DNA of 64,000 nucleotides from Nitrogeniibacter mangrovi (GCF_010983895.1 NZ_CP048836.1:4154001-4218000), one strand, 5' to 3'. Counted from the first letter of the stretch, positions 33,945-38,881 are shown. Numbers and translations are program-made. The notes: generated by a model from the sequence alone, not told the origin.

Positions 33945-34427
33945 ATTCACCTGGCTTGCGCGGCTCTATACGCAAGATCCGGTGGAATGACGGGTTGGGG
34001 TGACAAGCAGGACCGATTCAGCCGATGGCCCGCGCACTTGTCGAGCGGCGCGGCTACTGGAAAGCGGCGGTGGCCATCGCGGCGAAGAATGCGCGCCTGG
34101 CCTGGGCGGTGCTGCACTACGGCGATCAGTTTCGGCTCACCGGTGCGGAGCACTGAACACGAAGACAGTTTCCGGCAGGACGACACAGCGTTGATGTGAA
34201 GCGGTTTGGACCCGCGTGGGGCGTACCTGATTAGCTTGAGGGGTGAGACACACAGAGCCCGGCTAACGAATGAGGCCCCCACGCGCGTCTTTCATCAGGG
34301 TCCGGGCCATCGATGCCCAACATGACCGGTTGTAGTCACGCAGTCCATCAGCTTCGATGAAGCGCGGTGTCGAATCGAAAACGGAGGAGAAGATGAATTA
34401 AACCGAGGCTTGTATTTCGGGGGGAAG
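33945..34427. other. Non-genic accessory edge
   Basis: Apart from the IS110-type remnant at 34025-34156, this stretch holds no supportable gene. It contains an inverted repeat of CGCGTGGGG and CCCCACGCG about 60 bases apart (34214-34283) and isolated integron-core-like heptamers (GGCTAAC at 34261, GCCCAAC at 34315) without a convincing attC fold. It looks like decayed mobile DNA between the chromosome and the cassette array. Confidence 0.5.
34025..34156 (+). pseudogene. IS110-family transposase, 3' remnant
   Basis: Forty-three codons end in KAAVAIAAKNARLAWAVLHYG, the characteristic C-terminal end of IS110/IS1111 transposases. An in-frame stop at 34001-34003 shows that the rest of the gene is missing. 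No element ends were identified. Some IS1111-group elements are known to insert specifically into integron attC sites, so a remnant directly beside a cassette array fits that biology. Confidence 0.7.
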
Positions 34428-34516
34428 CCCTTTGTCGTAGAGGTGACCGGCGCTGCGCGGCTTCATCGCGCAGCGTCCAGAGAGCGAGGCGAACGGGGTC
34501 GACCGCCGGGTTATGC
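34428..34516 (-). other. Integron attC site 1 (terminal, one core degraded)
   Basis: The right core GTTATGC (34510-34516; GCATAAC on the minus strand) supplies the TAA stop of the adjacent cassette gene. The inner arms GCGCTGCGCG and CGCGCAGCG form a stem around TTCAT-type loop bases, flanked by GGTGACCGG and TCGACCGCC. The left core is not canonical (GCCCTTTGTC instead of GCCCAAC as in site 4). This marks the distal end of the array, possibly truncated. Confidence 0.65.
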
Positions 34517-35131
34517 CTTGATGACAAGACAGGGCTCTGATAGTTGTTGGGCATTCGTAGACCACCCAGCACGCAACATGCTCGCGCCAATGAGCGAGAG
34601 CACGCTTTGTTCTGAGATAGCGTTCGCAAGTTCCGGGTTTGGTAAAGCGGCTTGAAACGTCTGAACTGCAATCTCAGCGTCGTGTGCGTGCCCGCTACCT
34701 TTGGCTTTGCCAGACACAAATGCCTCCCATAGAAAGAGCCCTCCGTCGGAGGCCTCAAATGCTTTCCAGTTGAGAAAGGCCGCTGCAGACTTGGGTGTCT
34801 TGGTTCGAATCTGTTCAAGAAGCCATGTGACCTCGACAAGACCAGTAGCAAGCGCACCACAACCAGCACCTGCGCTCCAACTACGGTTTCCTTCGCCGGT
34901 TCTTGCTTTGGTGAGAAACATCGGATCGTCTCGAAGCGGCACATACAGAGGGCACTCGAATCCGAGTGCGACTTTTGCGCCGCAGGTGATTTTTTCGGCT
35001 ACCGCACTCGCAAGGTCTTCAATGCTGCTGCCTGGCACTGGTCTACCATCCGGGCCAGTACCGAACCAACCAAAGCGACCTGCCTTCACAGATCCAATGT
35101 CAGCGCAGAAGATCCAGAGACGATTAGGCAT
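34511..35131 (-). CDS. Cassette gene: predicted RNase H-like (DUF429-like) protein
   Basis: The 206-residue product has a short beta-type N-terminus with an acidic residue (LWIFCADIGSVKAGRFGWFG), a segment VALGFECPLYVPLRDDP, and a late acidic motif HAHDAEIAVQTF. These resemble the RNase H-like fold of DUF429-type predicted nucleases, but that match is tentative. The ATG lies inside the GTTATGC core of the upstream attC and the TAA inside the GCATAAC core of the downstream attC, so the ORF spans the whole cassette. Base composition is lower in GC than the chromosome. Confidence 0.75.
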   Translation of the reverse strand: MPNRLWIFCADIGSVKAGRFGWFGTGPDGRPVPGSSIEDLASAVAEKITCGAKVALGFECPLYVPLRDDPMFLTKARTGEGNRSWSAGAGCGALATGLVEVTWLLEQIRTKTPKSAAAFLNWKAFEASDGGLFLWEAFVSGKAKGSGHAHDAEIAVQTFQAALPNPELANAISEQSVLSLIGASMLRAGWSTNAQQLSEPCLVIKA

Positions 35132-35205
35132 AACGATTTACATAAGGGGCGCGGCGCGTGGCGCCGCGTCCCAGCCCGAAGGGCGACTTAATGTGATTGT
35201 TAGCC
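35128..35205 (-). other. Integron attC site 2
   Basis: The 78-bp element is bounded by GCATAAC (35128-35134) and GTTAGCC (35199-35205). The inner stem GGGCGCGGCG pairs with CGCCGCGTCC around a 5-base loop. The outer arms ACATAAG and CTTAATGT pair with one extra base, the asymmetry expected of attC. On the minus strand it supplies the stop of the membrane-protein cassette and the start of the next cassette gene. Confidence 0.85.
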
Positions 35206-35583
35206 ATTTATATCGCTCTCTCGAACTGGAGAGCAGAACACCGAAATAAGCCGTTTAAAATGTGTCGCCACCAGCGTTGCTCCGAAGACGGCGCCACCAA
35301 GAAGTCTAGCGCCACTACTGGTGTTGCCCGCCGAAAACTCGACCACGGAACCCACTATAACTACGAAAAAGGCAGCGAAGCCGAACAATAAACCAGCCAA
35401 CAACCAACGCTTCGCGGCCGGGTGCTGTCCCGACGGATCAGTATTGGAAAACGCCAGCGCACAGATTGAAACGCCGCAGAAGGCGAGAATGCCGAGACCA
35501 AAAATGGCCTTTCCATTGCCAAACGCCGCCAATGCTATGGCACCGCCTATAACCAGCAGCGCGATTTGAAGGATGTATGTCAT
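35200..35583 (-). CDS. Cassette gene: small four-helix membrane protein
   Basis: The 127-residue protein has four predicted membrane segments (about 5-23, 27-50, 69-91 and 99-115) and no recognised family. The ATG at 35583 (MTYILQIALL) lies just inside the cassette. A longer reading from 35613 would start within the attC. The TAA falls in the GGCTAAC core of attC site 2. The function is unknown; small membrane proteins are frequent in integron cassettes. Confidence 0.7.
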   Translation of the reverse strand: MTYILQIALLVIGGAIALAAFGNGKAIFGLGILAFCGVSICALAFSNTDPSGQHPAAKRWLLAGLLFGFAAFFVVIVGSVVEFSAGNTSSGARLLGGAVFGATLVATHFKRLISVFCSPVRESDING

Positions 35584-35594
35584 GCCGCGGACAT

Positions 35595-35661
35595 GGCTAA
35601 CGTTCAAAATCACTGGCCTGTGCGGATTTTCGCACAGGTCCGGTACATTGCAGGGTTGGGC
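35595..35661 (-). other. Integron attC site 3
   Basis: The 67-bp element is bounded by GGCTAAC (35595-35601) and GTTGGGC (35655-35661). The inner arms CCTGTGCG and CGCACAGG form an 8-bp stem around GATTTT. It separates the membrane-protein cassette from the Imm8 cassette. Confidence 0.85.
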
Positions 35662-35672
35662 GGCAGATCAGA

Positions 35673-36020
35673 TTAGGACGGTTTGAAATTTTCAAACTCC
35701 CAATTCAACTCGTGGTTGAGTACAGCGGCGACCTCGGCCCACGATTCACGGCGCGACTGCGACAACAAGCGCTCAACAGCACGCTCGACGACTACCCAGG
35801 AAAATGCTTCCACAAGGAGGATGCCTCGGCCCCAGCGGGGAAGGTCTTCGCGCAGCAACCCGCTCGGTGTGGCAACGGTAAAGAAGAAAAGGTCCTCTCC
35901 TCTTTCACCCTTTGGCCCGATAGAGGCTTGCAGCGAAACAACACAATCGTCCGGATTCGGCGGTAGGGCCGGCTTCTCTAGACCGGGGCAGAACAACTCT
36001 TTAAGCACGGGGGTAATCAT
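35673..36020 (-). CDS. Cassette gene: Imm8-family immunity protein
   Basis: The 115-residue soluble protein matches the Immunity protein 8 family: ASIGPKGERGEDLFFFTVATPSGLL, then GRGILLVEAF, and a closing SWAEVAAVLNHELNWEFENF block. The family's usual length is about 110-120 residues. Imm8 proteins neutralise toxins of polymorphic or contact-dependent systems. Here there is no cognate toxin gene adjacent, so it is an orphan immunity gene carried as a cassette. The ATG at 36020 was chosen; a TTG at 36029 lies in the attC core. Confidence 0.85.
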   Translation of the reverse strand: MITPVLKELFCPGLEKPALPPNPDDCVVSLQASIGPKGERGEDLFFFTVATPSGLLREDLPRWGRGILLVEAFSWVVVERAVERLLSQSRRESWAEVAAVLNHELNWEFENFKPS

Positions 36021-36023
36021 GAC

Positions 36024-36092
36024 GCCCAACGTGGAGGTAACCGGCGCTGCGCGGCCTTATTGCGCAGCGTCCGGTTGACCGCCGGGTTGGGG
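36024..36092 (-). other. Integron attC site 4
   Basis: The 69-bp element is bounded by GCCCAAC (36024-36030) and GTTGGGG (36086-36092); the minus-strand recombination core GTTGGGC fits GTTRRRY exactly. The inner arms CGCTGCGC and GCGCAGCG flank a 9-base loop, and the outer arms GGTAACCGG and CCGGTTGACC pair with one unpaired base. The TAA of the HEPN cassette gene lies in the loop. Confidence 0.9.
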
Positions 36093-36827
36093 GGCTTTCG
36101 TAGTCTCAAATGCTTCGAGGAAACCATCAATTACACTTACGAGAACTCGTACCAGTAGTTGCCAAGTGTCGCGGGTATAGTCACCAGCTACAGAGATTCT
36201 TTCGCCTAGGTTACCTCGGGCAAAGGCTCCTGCCTTCTGTTGATATGTTTCGTTCACAACGCCAGAGTTGTGAACCAAGATATCTCTCGTTGCTTTCGCT
36301 TCTGCTATTTGCCCCAAGTCTTGGTCAGGAATGCAGATGTCGGATACAAGCTTCGCTACATAAGCAAACCAATCGGCTACAGGCTTGTACTTCAATTCAT
36401 TTAGCTCGCGGTCGACCAGCACAGAAATGATTTGGTCTTTGTCTGCTGCGGACACAATGACACCATATTCGATATGGCGCTTTGATGGAAGACGGATGGG
36501 TTGCGCAATCAAAACGGTGCGTAGCGTATCGAAGAACATGCTCTCGAAGACGGCCACCTGATGTTGGACTATCAACTGAAGAAAATGATTGTCATAGGCG
36601 CGTGTGAGGTAACCGGCCAATTCGTTGGGTGAAACCGTCTTGTCCTGAAGCCCTAGGCTATGAGCAAACTCAGAATAGGCAATTGTTATTGTTGTTTGGT
36701 GCGGCATTCCTGCCGCGAAGTTAGATGCGAATTGGTAGCCCAGTTGCGTGTATGACTTGAACTCCATTGCTGAACAAAAGTCATTGATAGCCTGAGCTCG
36801 CAAACCCCGGAGAGATTCAATAAGCAT
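36057..36827 (-). CDS. Cassette gene: HEPN-domain protein
   Basis: The 256-residue, mainly helical soluble protein contains the HEPN RNase signature Rx4H in KATRDILVHNSGVVNETY, with the downstream Gly-Val-Tyr pattern usual in such proteins. HEPN domains with this motif are often metal-independent RNases in toxin-antitoxin, abortive-infection and CRISPR-associated systems. No MNT partner gene is adjacent. The stop lies in the loop of attC site 4 and the start is 27 bases from attC site 5, so this is a typical cassette. Base composition is visibly AT-richer than the chromosome. Confidence 0.8.
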   Translation of the reverse strand: MLIESLRGLRAQAINDFCSAMEFKSYTQLGYQFASNFAAGMPHQTTITIAYSEFAHSLGLQDKTVSPNELAGYLTRAYDNHFLQLIVQHQVAVFESMFFDTLRTVLIAQPIRLPSKRHIEYGVIVSAADKDQIISVLVDRELNELKYKPVADWFAYVAKLVSDICIPDQDLGQIAEAKATRDILVHNSGVVNETYQQKAGAFARGNLGERISVAGDYTRDTWQLLVRVLVSVIDGFLEAFETTKAPQPGGQPDAAQ

Positions 36828-36853
36828 GGATTACCTCACAGAGGACACAAGCC

Positions 36854-36940
36854 CCCCAACAGCTTGCGTAACCGACGGCCGAAAGTGGCAGAGCGAAGCG
36901 GCGCCACTTTTGGCCGTCCGAGTTCACGCGTTTGTTAGAT
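36854..36940 (-). other. Integron attC site 5
   Basis: The 87-bp element is bounded by CCCCAAC (36854-36860) and GTTAGAT (36934-36940; ATCTAAC on the minus strand fits RYYYAAC exactly). The arms GGCCGAAAGTGGC and GCCACTTTTGGCC form a 13-bp stem around AGAGCGAAGCGGC-type loop bases. It lies between the glycosylase cassette and the HEPN cassette. Confidence 0.87.
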
Positions 36941-36947
36941 GTGCTTT

Positions 36948-37592
36948 TCACAATTGCTGAAGTTCTTCTCGCAGCAGCCGCTTTGACTCCAGATCCTGAG
37001 TTGGATACTGGGCACGGGATCCGTTTGCGCTTCCCGCTGGGTGAATCATTGGCAAAACGACGGCGTTTCTCCACAGAAACCGTCGGCCCACCAAATCAGG
37101 AACGCGGAGGTCTTGCGGCTTGTGCTTCTCGAACTCACGAAGGCAATAACCTAGCTCTTCTCTCTCCCGCATCGTTACGTATGCTTTCCAAGAAAGTCCA
37201 CCGAGGCAGACGATTAGTTTCGGCTTCAATAGCTCTAGTTGTTTTGCAAGGAAGGGGGAGCAACTGTTCACCTCAGAAGTGCTTGGTACTCGATCAGTAC
37301 TGGCACCCGGGCGGCGCCCCGGAAAGCACTTTGTCACTGACGTTTGATATACGGTGTTGTCGAAGTCCCGTAAGCCGCATGACCGAAATAGAGATTTAAT
37401 AGATGTGCCTGCATCACCTTGGAAAGGTGCATTCCGCTCATACTCTGTTCTTCCTGGCGATTGACCAACAAGGATAACCGGATAGCCAGCGCCACCGCCA
37501 AAGATTGGCCTTGGAACGACGCTGTATTCTGACAATTTCGCAGCACATTTTCGGCACGAGCGCATTTCGTCGGCCAATAGATTCAGCGGCAT
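36948..37592 (-). CDS. Cassette gene: uracil-DNA glycosylase-family protein (4Fe-4S type)
   Basis: The 214-residue protein resembles family 4/5 uracil-DNA glycosylases. It has an N-terminal CRKC pair, the active-site block ILVGQSPGRTEYERNAPF, further cysteines in SVTKCFPGRRP and NSCSPFLAKQ that complete a probable 4Fe-4S site, and the late motif LPMIHPAG. Such enzymes excise uracil from DNA. AAGGAGAAGAG precedes the ATG, and the cassette begins at a core-like GTTAGAA (37614-37620, minus strand). The stop is 8 bases from attC site 5. Family variants with altered specificity exist, and some act in phage defence. Confidence 0.83.
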   Translation of the reverse strand: MPLNLLADEMRSCRKCAAKLSEYSVVPRPIFGGGAGYPVILVGQSPGRTEYERNAPFQGDAGTSIKSLFRSCGLRDFDNTVYQTSVTKCFPGRRPGASTDRVPSTSEVNSCSPFLAKQLELLKPKLIVCLGGLSWKAYVTMREREELGYCLREFEKHKPQDLRVPDLVGRRFLWRNAVVLPMIHPAGSANGSRAQYPTQDLESKRLLREELQQL

Positions 37593-37900
37593 CTCTTCTC
37601 CTTCTTGAGCACTTCTAACTATAAGCAGACGTCCTAAACGACGGAAAACTTCCCGTCACACAGATGAATACGCGCGTCCAATCGCAAAAAAAAAAGCTGC
37701 AATTTCAACGAACTCATCCGATTTAGTCCGTCCTAATTTCAAAACACGGATACGTCGCTTTTCCCGGTGCCACCAACGCATTCCGCAGGGAACGATGCTC
37801 GCCATCGACGACGCCGGTGCGGCGCCTTCGCGTATGCGAACACGTTACCCATGAACACGAGCCAAGGCAATGCGTTGTGGGTAGTGCGTTGCCGGCGATG
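37593..37900. other. AT-rich proximal flank of the cassette array
   Basis: No gene is seen. The minus strand carries a core-like GTTAGAA at 37614-37620 where the first cassette would begin. An A10 run (37686-37695) lies in AT-rich DNA up to about 37760, after which composition returns to chromosomal. This is where an attI site and cassette promoter would sit, but I see no integrase gene or convincing attI on either side. Confidence 0.5.
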
Positions 37901-38881
37901 TCACATCAGCGGTGGTTCGTCCATCAGCGCGATCTGCTCCCTTAGCGCCAGGATGTGGTCCTGCCAGTAGCGGGGGCTGTCGAACCAGCTGAAGGCGTGG
38001 GGGAAGGCGGGGTCGTGCCAGCGCTGGGCGATCCAGGCGGCGTAGTGGATGAGGCGCAGGGTGCGCAGGGCTTCGGCGAGTTGGCGTTCGGCGGGGTTGA
38101 AGTCGGCGAACTGGCGGTAGCCTTCGAAGATGACCTCGAACTGGCGGCGCTGTTCGTCTCCCTGGCCGGTGAGGAGCATCCACAGGTCCTGGATGGCGGG
38201 GCCCATGCGGGCGTCGTCGAAGTCGACGAAGTGGGGGCCGTCGGGGGTCCACAGCACGTTGCCGGCGTGGCAGTCGCCGTGCAGGCGGATGAGGGCGATG
38301 TCGCCGGCGCGCTGGTAGCAGCGCTCGACGCCGTCGAGGGCCTGGTCCACCACGCTGCGCCAGCTGGTTTCGAGCTCCATGGGGATGTAGGGGGTGCGCA
38401 GCAGGGCGTCGCGGGCGTCGATGCCGTAGGTCTGGCGGTCGATGACGGGGCGGTGGGCGAAGGGTTTGGTGGCGCCGACCGCATGGACGCGGGCCATGAA
38501 GCGGCCCATCCAGCGCAGCACGTCTTCGTCCTCCAGCTCGGGGGCACGGCCGCCACGGCGGGGGAACACGGCGATGCGGTAGCCGCCGGCCTGGTGCAGG
38601 GTGCGGCCGTCGAGGGCGAGGGGGGCGACGACGGGAATCTCGCGTTCGGCCAGCTCGTGCAGGAAGGCGTGTTCCTCGCCGATGGCCTCGTCGCTCCAGC
38701 GGCCGGGGCGGTAGAACTTGGCGATCAGGGGCGCGCCGTCGTCCACGCCCACCTGGAAGACGCGGTTCTCGTAGCTGTTGAGGGCGAGCACGCTGCCGTT
38801 CACGGGCAGGCCGATGGCCTCGAGGGCGTCGAGCAGGGCGTCGGGGGTGAGCCGGGCGAAGGGGGCTTCCGTGTCGGTCAT
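37901..38881 (-). CDS. srkA: Stress response kinase A (SrkA/YihE)
   Basis: The 326-residue APH-fold protein kinase matches E. coli SrkA closely: LNSYENRVFQVG, LIAKFYRPGRWSDEAI, the catalytic loop LHGDCHAGNVLW, the metal site VDFDDARMGPAIQDLWMLL, and the end MDEPPLM. SrkA is linked to Cpx-regulated stress survival. Its start overlaps the stop of the TerC gene (ATGA at 38878), so the two are co-transcribed. Confidence 0.94.
   Translation of the reverse strand: MTDTEAPFARLTPDALLDALEAIGLPVNGSVLALNSYENRVFQVGVDDGAPLIAKFYRPGRWSDEAIGEEHAFLHELAEREIPVVAPLALDGRTLHQAGGYRIAVFPRRGGRAPELEDEDVLRWMGRFMARVHAVGATKPFAHRPVIDRQTYGIDARDALLRTPYIPMELETSWRSVVDQALDGVERCYQRAGDIALIRLHGDCHAGNVLWTPDGPHFVDFDDARMGPAIQDLWMLLTGQGDEQRRQFEVIFEGYRQFADFNPAERQLAEALRTLRLIHYAAWIAQRWHDPAFPHAFSWFDSPRYWQDHILALREQIALMDEPPLM

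Follow-up and report, generated by a model that had tools for sequence, protein, structure and literature searches.

The window, meaning the whole 64-kb stretch of DNA analysed here (C1:4154001-4218000 of a single-contig genome of 4.24 Mb, G000), carries an array of gene cassettes headed by an attI site, which sits downstream of an srkA-like kinase gene. It was compared with nine other Denitromonas genomes (Betaproteobacteria); G- codes denote genomes and L- codes the stretches fetched from them. From the head of the array to its end, the features are as follows.

37901..38881, minus strand: flanking chromosomal gene, srkA-like kinase (PRK11768, E 1.9e-145)
37617..37736, minus strand: orphan attI, without the intI that normally abuts attI; homologous to the intI-linked attI
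36860..37618, minus strand: cassette 1, with ORF 36948-37592 (214 aa, uracil-DNA glycosylase superfamily) and attC1
36854-36940, minus strand: attC1, recognised by its fold (z -4.6) and the core rule; not found by model R2
36030..36859, minus strand: cassette 2, with ORF 36057-36827 (256 aa, no family found) and attC2
36024-36092, minus strand: attC2 (R2 E 1.3e-4)
35601..36029, minus strand: cassette 3, with ORF 35673-36029 (118 aa, Imm8, Pfam PF15586 E 1.5e-17) and attC3
35595-35661, minus strand: attC3 (R2 E 1.6e-5)
35134..35600, minus strand: cassette 4, with ORF 35200-35613 (137 aa, hydrophobic) and attC4
35128-35205, minus strand: attC4 (fold z -5.3; R2 E 0.26, marginal)
34433..35133, minus strand: cassette 5, with ORF 34511-35131 (206 aa, no family found) and a truncated attC5
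about 34433-34516, minus strand: attC5, truncated, with R'' (34510-34516) kept and R' lost
33999..34432, minus strand: IS1111/IS110-family insertion-sequence remnant interrupting attC5, 86% identical for about 440 bp to one end of a longer element in L074
33932-34000, minus strand: attC6, with an altered R' core (GATGGGG); R2 E 5.6e-4; the remaining site of a cassette that has lost its body

An earlier note on this DNA had described five minus-strand ORFs alternating with hairpin sites, and this is borne out by the window sequence, the ORF coordinates, and the attC model and folds. The model, R2, is a covariance model built from 11 attCs at other loci, with the attCs of the window excluded from training; a first attC model, R1, lacked base pairs and was set aside. 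A covariance-model check run with R2 found attC2, attC3 and the sixth site, found attC4 marginally and missed attC1, and there was no match to R2 elsewhere on either strand of the 64-kb window. The bottom strands of attC1 to attC4 fold with z scores of -3.7 to -6.5 relative to mononucleotide shuffles, and those of attC5 and attC6 are unremarkable by the same measure (z -0.2 and -1.9). The same note's picture of four full attC sites and a degraded terminal one is right in that attC5 is broken, but the cause is the insertion-sequence remnant, and a sixth attC lies beyond it.

Pairing of the leading core of a cassette with its own R'' core is a requirement for circular cassettes. In cassettes 2, 3 and 4 the leading GTTRRRY core is complementary to the cassette's own R'' core at eight of eight bases, and in cassette 5 the lead GTTATGCC pairs with its R'' GGCATAAC (read by eye); the lead of cassette 1 differs from its own R'' at one core position (GTTAGAA versus GTTAGAT). 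Start and stop codons had been said to fall inside the cores. This is true of the stop codons of cassettes 4 and 5, which lie in R'' cores, and of the ATG of cassette 5, which lies in the lead core, but it is not universal.

A confident family could be assigned to two of the five cassette proteins, namely the uracil-DNA glycosylase superfamily member of cassette 1 (Pfam PF03167 E 5e-23; nearest solved structures uracil-DNA glycosylases, 4zbx E 2e-15) and the Imm8 protein of cassette 3. The product of cassette 4 is probably a membrane protein, with weak matches to a B-4DMT transporter (E 4e-4, below that family's cut-off) and to the PADLOC entry 'Effector 2TM' (E 0.006). A homologue of the cassette 5 protein, with 53% identity, is found on a Vibrio plasmid. 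Single-sequence structure predictions for cassettes 2 and 5 reached a mean pLDDT of only 40.7 and 37.2. The sequence RDILVH in cassette 2 fits, by eye, the R-x4-6-H motif of HEPN nucleases; no search supports a HEPN domain there. The array had earlier been called defence-rich, a description that is not supported: the match to 'Effector 2TM' was the single one from PADLOC, and a PHROGs search of the cassettes gave one weak match, of unknown function and none of defence type. The cassette contents do not make a defence array.

The attI at the head of the array consists of a proximal part (37617-37659), which contains the crossover G|TT at 37619, and a distal part (37704-37736). Its local alignment to the attI that adjoins intI in the same genome (L007 19319-19437) scores 64, where the maximum of 300 shuffles is 26; BLAST aligns the two at 86% over 43 nt (E 1.7e-7) and, weakly, at 82% over 33 nt (E 0.049). 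The window attI was also aligned with six other sites, and its conservation is good over part of its length only. Among seven type B sites, five have distal and proximal parts that are more alike than shuffled sequence would give (no more than 15 of 500 shuffles score as high); the halves of the window attI are no more alike than chance (185 of 500), and the same holds for G008_c. Under the pattern CRTCGWTTAGGRNGTCTRYTTAT, this type of attI occurs twice in G000, beside intI and in the window, and in four of 399 genomes of the family, all of them Denitromonas. The pattern found nothing in viral contigs and 12 stretches in genome contigs, two of which are G005 and G009; four of the other ten had no listed BLAST match in the one run made. 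A simple scan of 37550-37920 for a sigma-70-type promoter (Pc) gave no match at attI. A left boundary at a GTT triplet, which would make the region a 'super-cassette' excised by IntI, was set aside; in type B sites a GACG motif, together with some of the distal repeat, is located further upstream (read by eye).

The earlier statement that no intI is visible holds for the window, which has no intI match, but a search of the whole genome finds one complete intI at C1:1838343-1839287, 2.35 Mb from the window (TIGR02249, 477 bits). Its product aligns nearly end to end with Vibrio cholerae IntI4 (IntIA, 2A3V; E 5e-94), and the alignment keeps the catalytic R, K, HxxR, H and Y positions. The gene is followed by attI and then by four cassettes. 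No trace of intI was detected in the 1.2 kb upstream of the window attI (local score 27, shuffle mean 29). The same genome has a third array (C1:111983-114084), next to an attI1-like site and a short piece of an intI1-like gene; these two head the array and fall at about 10150-10660 of L118 (G000:C1:104000-118000). A 315-bp region of this array is about 72% identical to class 1 integrons, with matches in at least 5000 plasmid records.

The operational definition of a CALIN is at least two attC sites without a neighbouring intI. Three sites of the window array have E values below 1e-3 and one an E value of 0.26 under R2, with attC1 recognised by fold and core rule, and the sole complete intI of the genome lies far from a window that begins at 4154001. 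The earlier classification as a CALIN therefore stands by that definition, but the locus is more than a bare cluster of attC sites: there is an attI at its head, and the genome encodes a complete IntI. Judged as a complete integron, it has the attI at the head of the array and lacks an intI adjoining it. An Rfam search gave no match.

Orphan attI sites of three types, each without intI, are present in G000, G001, G005, G006, G008 and G009, and the spot downstream of srkA holds attI-led arrays lacking intI in two other Denitromonas genomes (L090 and L091). The orphan sites outside the window are these.

L074-L076 (G008): type B orphans, three sites
L077 and L078 (G005 and G009): type B orphans downstream of a serA-like gene, one each
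L090 and L091 (G005 and G009): type C orphans downstream of srkA
L124 and L127 (G001 and G006): type A orphans

No intI was detected by tblastn in the stretches fetched around the orphan attI sites, and no clear intI relic was seen upstream of nine orphan sites, over 1.2 kb each. Seven of the nine were within the range of shuffles, and borderline scores were obtained for G006 (48, shuffle maximum 45) and G008_b (42, shuffle maximum 44). Elsewhere in the genus intI is frameshifted or fragmented, in L079, L085, L121, L125, L131, L132 and L118. The match at L079 3890-4842 is the only one in G008 above the cut-off for intI; it lies in two frames (a frameshift), though that genome has several arrays. 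The assemblies of G005 and G009 contain type B orphan attI sites without a cognate type B intI, so that use of these sites in trans would need either cross-recognition or a gene since lost. A palindromic sequence of about 90 bp was noticed downstream of srkA and serA and upstream of the orphan attI (L091 1363-1453 and L077 2877-2968).

Evidence for cassette exchange at such sites comes from three loci, each compared between two species that share the same attI. Upstream of the crossover G|TT, and right up to it, the two species are 94-99% identical at the serA locus, 96-98% at the srkA locus and 91-97% at the locus common to G001 and G006. Just past the crossover the sequences are unrelated, and the cassettes differ. 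In the srkA pair, the segment from 301 to 601 bp downstream can be aligned at 67% with numerous gaps, and an attC lies in that region in both species. The first cassettes at all six sites obey the rule that the lead pairs with R'' (the serA cores having been read by eye). Since neither species has an intI at any of the three loci, the simplest account is that an integrase encoded elsewhere gained or lost cassettes there. In G008, furthermore, one 423-bp cassette (95% identity) is common to the intI-linked array and an orphan array. These results imply that IntI acts in trans to recombine cassettes at orphan attI sites. If a whole array had instead been imported by homologous recombination, the question would shift to the donor. 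For the window locus, at which one strain of the species was available, exchange is supported indirectly, through the sister orphan-attI loci and through the absence of its cassette bodies elsewhere: searches of the nine other Denitromonas genomes (E 1e-6) turned up none of the five, whereas the attC families of these cassettes are present there.

These observations bear on several simpler accounts of the window array. One is that the palindromes are coincidental and lie between unrelated genes; in its favour, loose scans for cores and palindromes fire elsewhere too in this GC-rich window. However, the independently trained model matches only the array, the cores are self-complementary in pairs, and the attC families recur across the genus whereas the cassette bodies do not; the chance of coincidence is negligible, and that account is already contradicted. 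An ordinary CALIN might also arise when IntI inserts cassettes at a genomic site that is not an attI (attG), which is a known route of origin for arrays away from intI (attG is described in PMC12901181 and PMC12444791). This too is very improbable at the window, and is already contradicted by the attI homology: the junction resembles the intI-linked attI in both its proximal and its distal parts, far beyond a short crossover triplet.

A more serious competitor is that the locus is a dead relic, a complete integron that lost its intI and whose attI and cassettes are now a fossil in which no recombination takes place. The terminal attC broken by an insertion-sequence remnant, the mutated core of the sixth attC and the decaying intI copies listed above all fit such a history. 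Against it, attC1 to attC4 are intact, attI has been retained, there is no clear trace of intI, and cassettes changed after the species split at three sister loci that have no local intI. We regard the relic as unlikely. The reading we favour, and consider likely to be correct, is that the locus is an integron platform without an integrase gene of its own, comprising attI and then six attC sites (five intact cassettes) after srkA, and served by IntI in trans. Points that weigh against it are the partial conservation of the window attI and the lack of likeness between its halves, the failure of the promoter scan to find a match there, and the type B orphans of G005 and G009 that have no cognate intI.

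On this platform, IntI made 2.35 Mb away would act in trans on the window array. It would take circular cassettes by their attC sites, folded as hairpins, and recombine them with the window attI at the crossover, and it would also excise cassettes from the array again. We infer that IntI recognises the window attI at present and that the array either is expressed or once was. As to origin, loss of intI from complete integrons remains one route, of which the decaying copies are examples. A second route, in which attI-headed arrays spread without intI, is suggested by the lack of clear relics and by the presence of two attI types at the srkA spot. A broader proposal, which we put forward tentatively and think rather less probable than not, is that the integron in Denitromonas is divided, such that one or a few integrase genes serve several intI-less attI docking sites in trans, with arrays that spread never having carried intI.

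The window array is like the CALINs defined by IntegronFinder in its tandem attC sites (at least two), its co-oriented cassettes and the lack of a neighbouring intI, but differs from a plain CALIN in that it begins with a recognisable attI. IntegronFinder detects no attI outside class 1 (PMC9024848), and arrays like this one would therefore be filed as plain CALINs. A close parallel is the Shewanella prophage M16-3 (PMC9892861), where the one genome holds both an integron and a CALIN, each headed by the same attI type. That is a single case, in a cryptic prophage, with a 28-nt site, whereas the Denitromonas sites are chromosomal, occur at several loci throughout a genus with several types of attI, and come with between-species evidence of exchange. 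Xanthomonas CALINs away from ilvD likewise occupy conserved chromosomal positions distant from a single intI locus; no attI was noticed at them in that report (PMC12444791), whereas an attI heads the array here, and the report already states that CALINs are mobilised in trans. In the Delta-attI-type gene cassettes of class 1 and class 2 integrons (PMC12901181), attI sequence is also found away from its usual place beside intI, but there attI fragments replace the attC downstream of an ORF, and here the attI precedes cassette 1 and occupies a different chromosomal locus. CALINs are thus already known, as are their mobilisation in trans and one CALIN with an attI of its own. Searches of the open-access literature yielded no account of arrays that begin with attI, lack intI and recur throughout a genus, with species pairs that diverge at the crossover, and the genus-wide scale and the natural evidence of exchange in trans look new.

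It is common for arrays to have no local integrase, and they are generally regarded as debris or as products of insertion at chance sites. The species pairs suggest that arrays which retain attI keep exchanging cassettes by means of an integrase encoded elsewhere. Published CALINs may include unrecognised arrays of this attI-led kind, because current software ignores attI outside class 1, and, if the present reading is confirmed, several cassette platforms per genome could be under the control of one integrase.

The remnant at the far end of the array has a traceable source. The L074 element of G008 has the IS110-family domains PF01548 and PF02371 in two adjacent ORFs (broken or split) and sits inside an attC, after which the array core GTTAGCG follows. 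From homology to this transposase-bearing element, attC5 received an insertion of an IS1111/IS110-type element that afterwards became truncated. The L074 element may belong to the IS1111-attC group, which is defined by an IS110/IS1111-family transposase and insertion in attC. The window remnant begins with 94 bp that recur at 100% identity where the intI-linked array of the same genome ends. The idea that this identity marks the end of a mobile unit of attI and cassettes was rejected, the same sequence in L074 being the end of an IS110-family element within an attC. Several copies or pieces of an IS1111/IS110-type element were noted in G008, at L074 7392-8750 and at G008:C1:898266, 2844361, 3672301 and 1787379.
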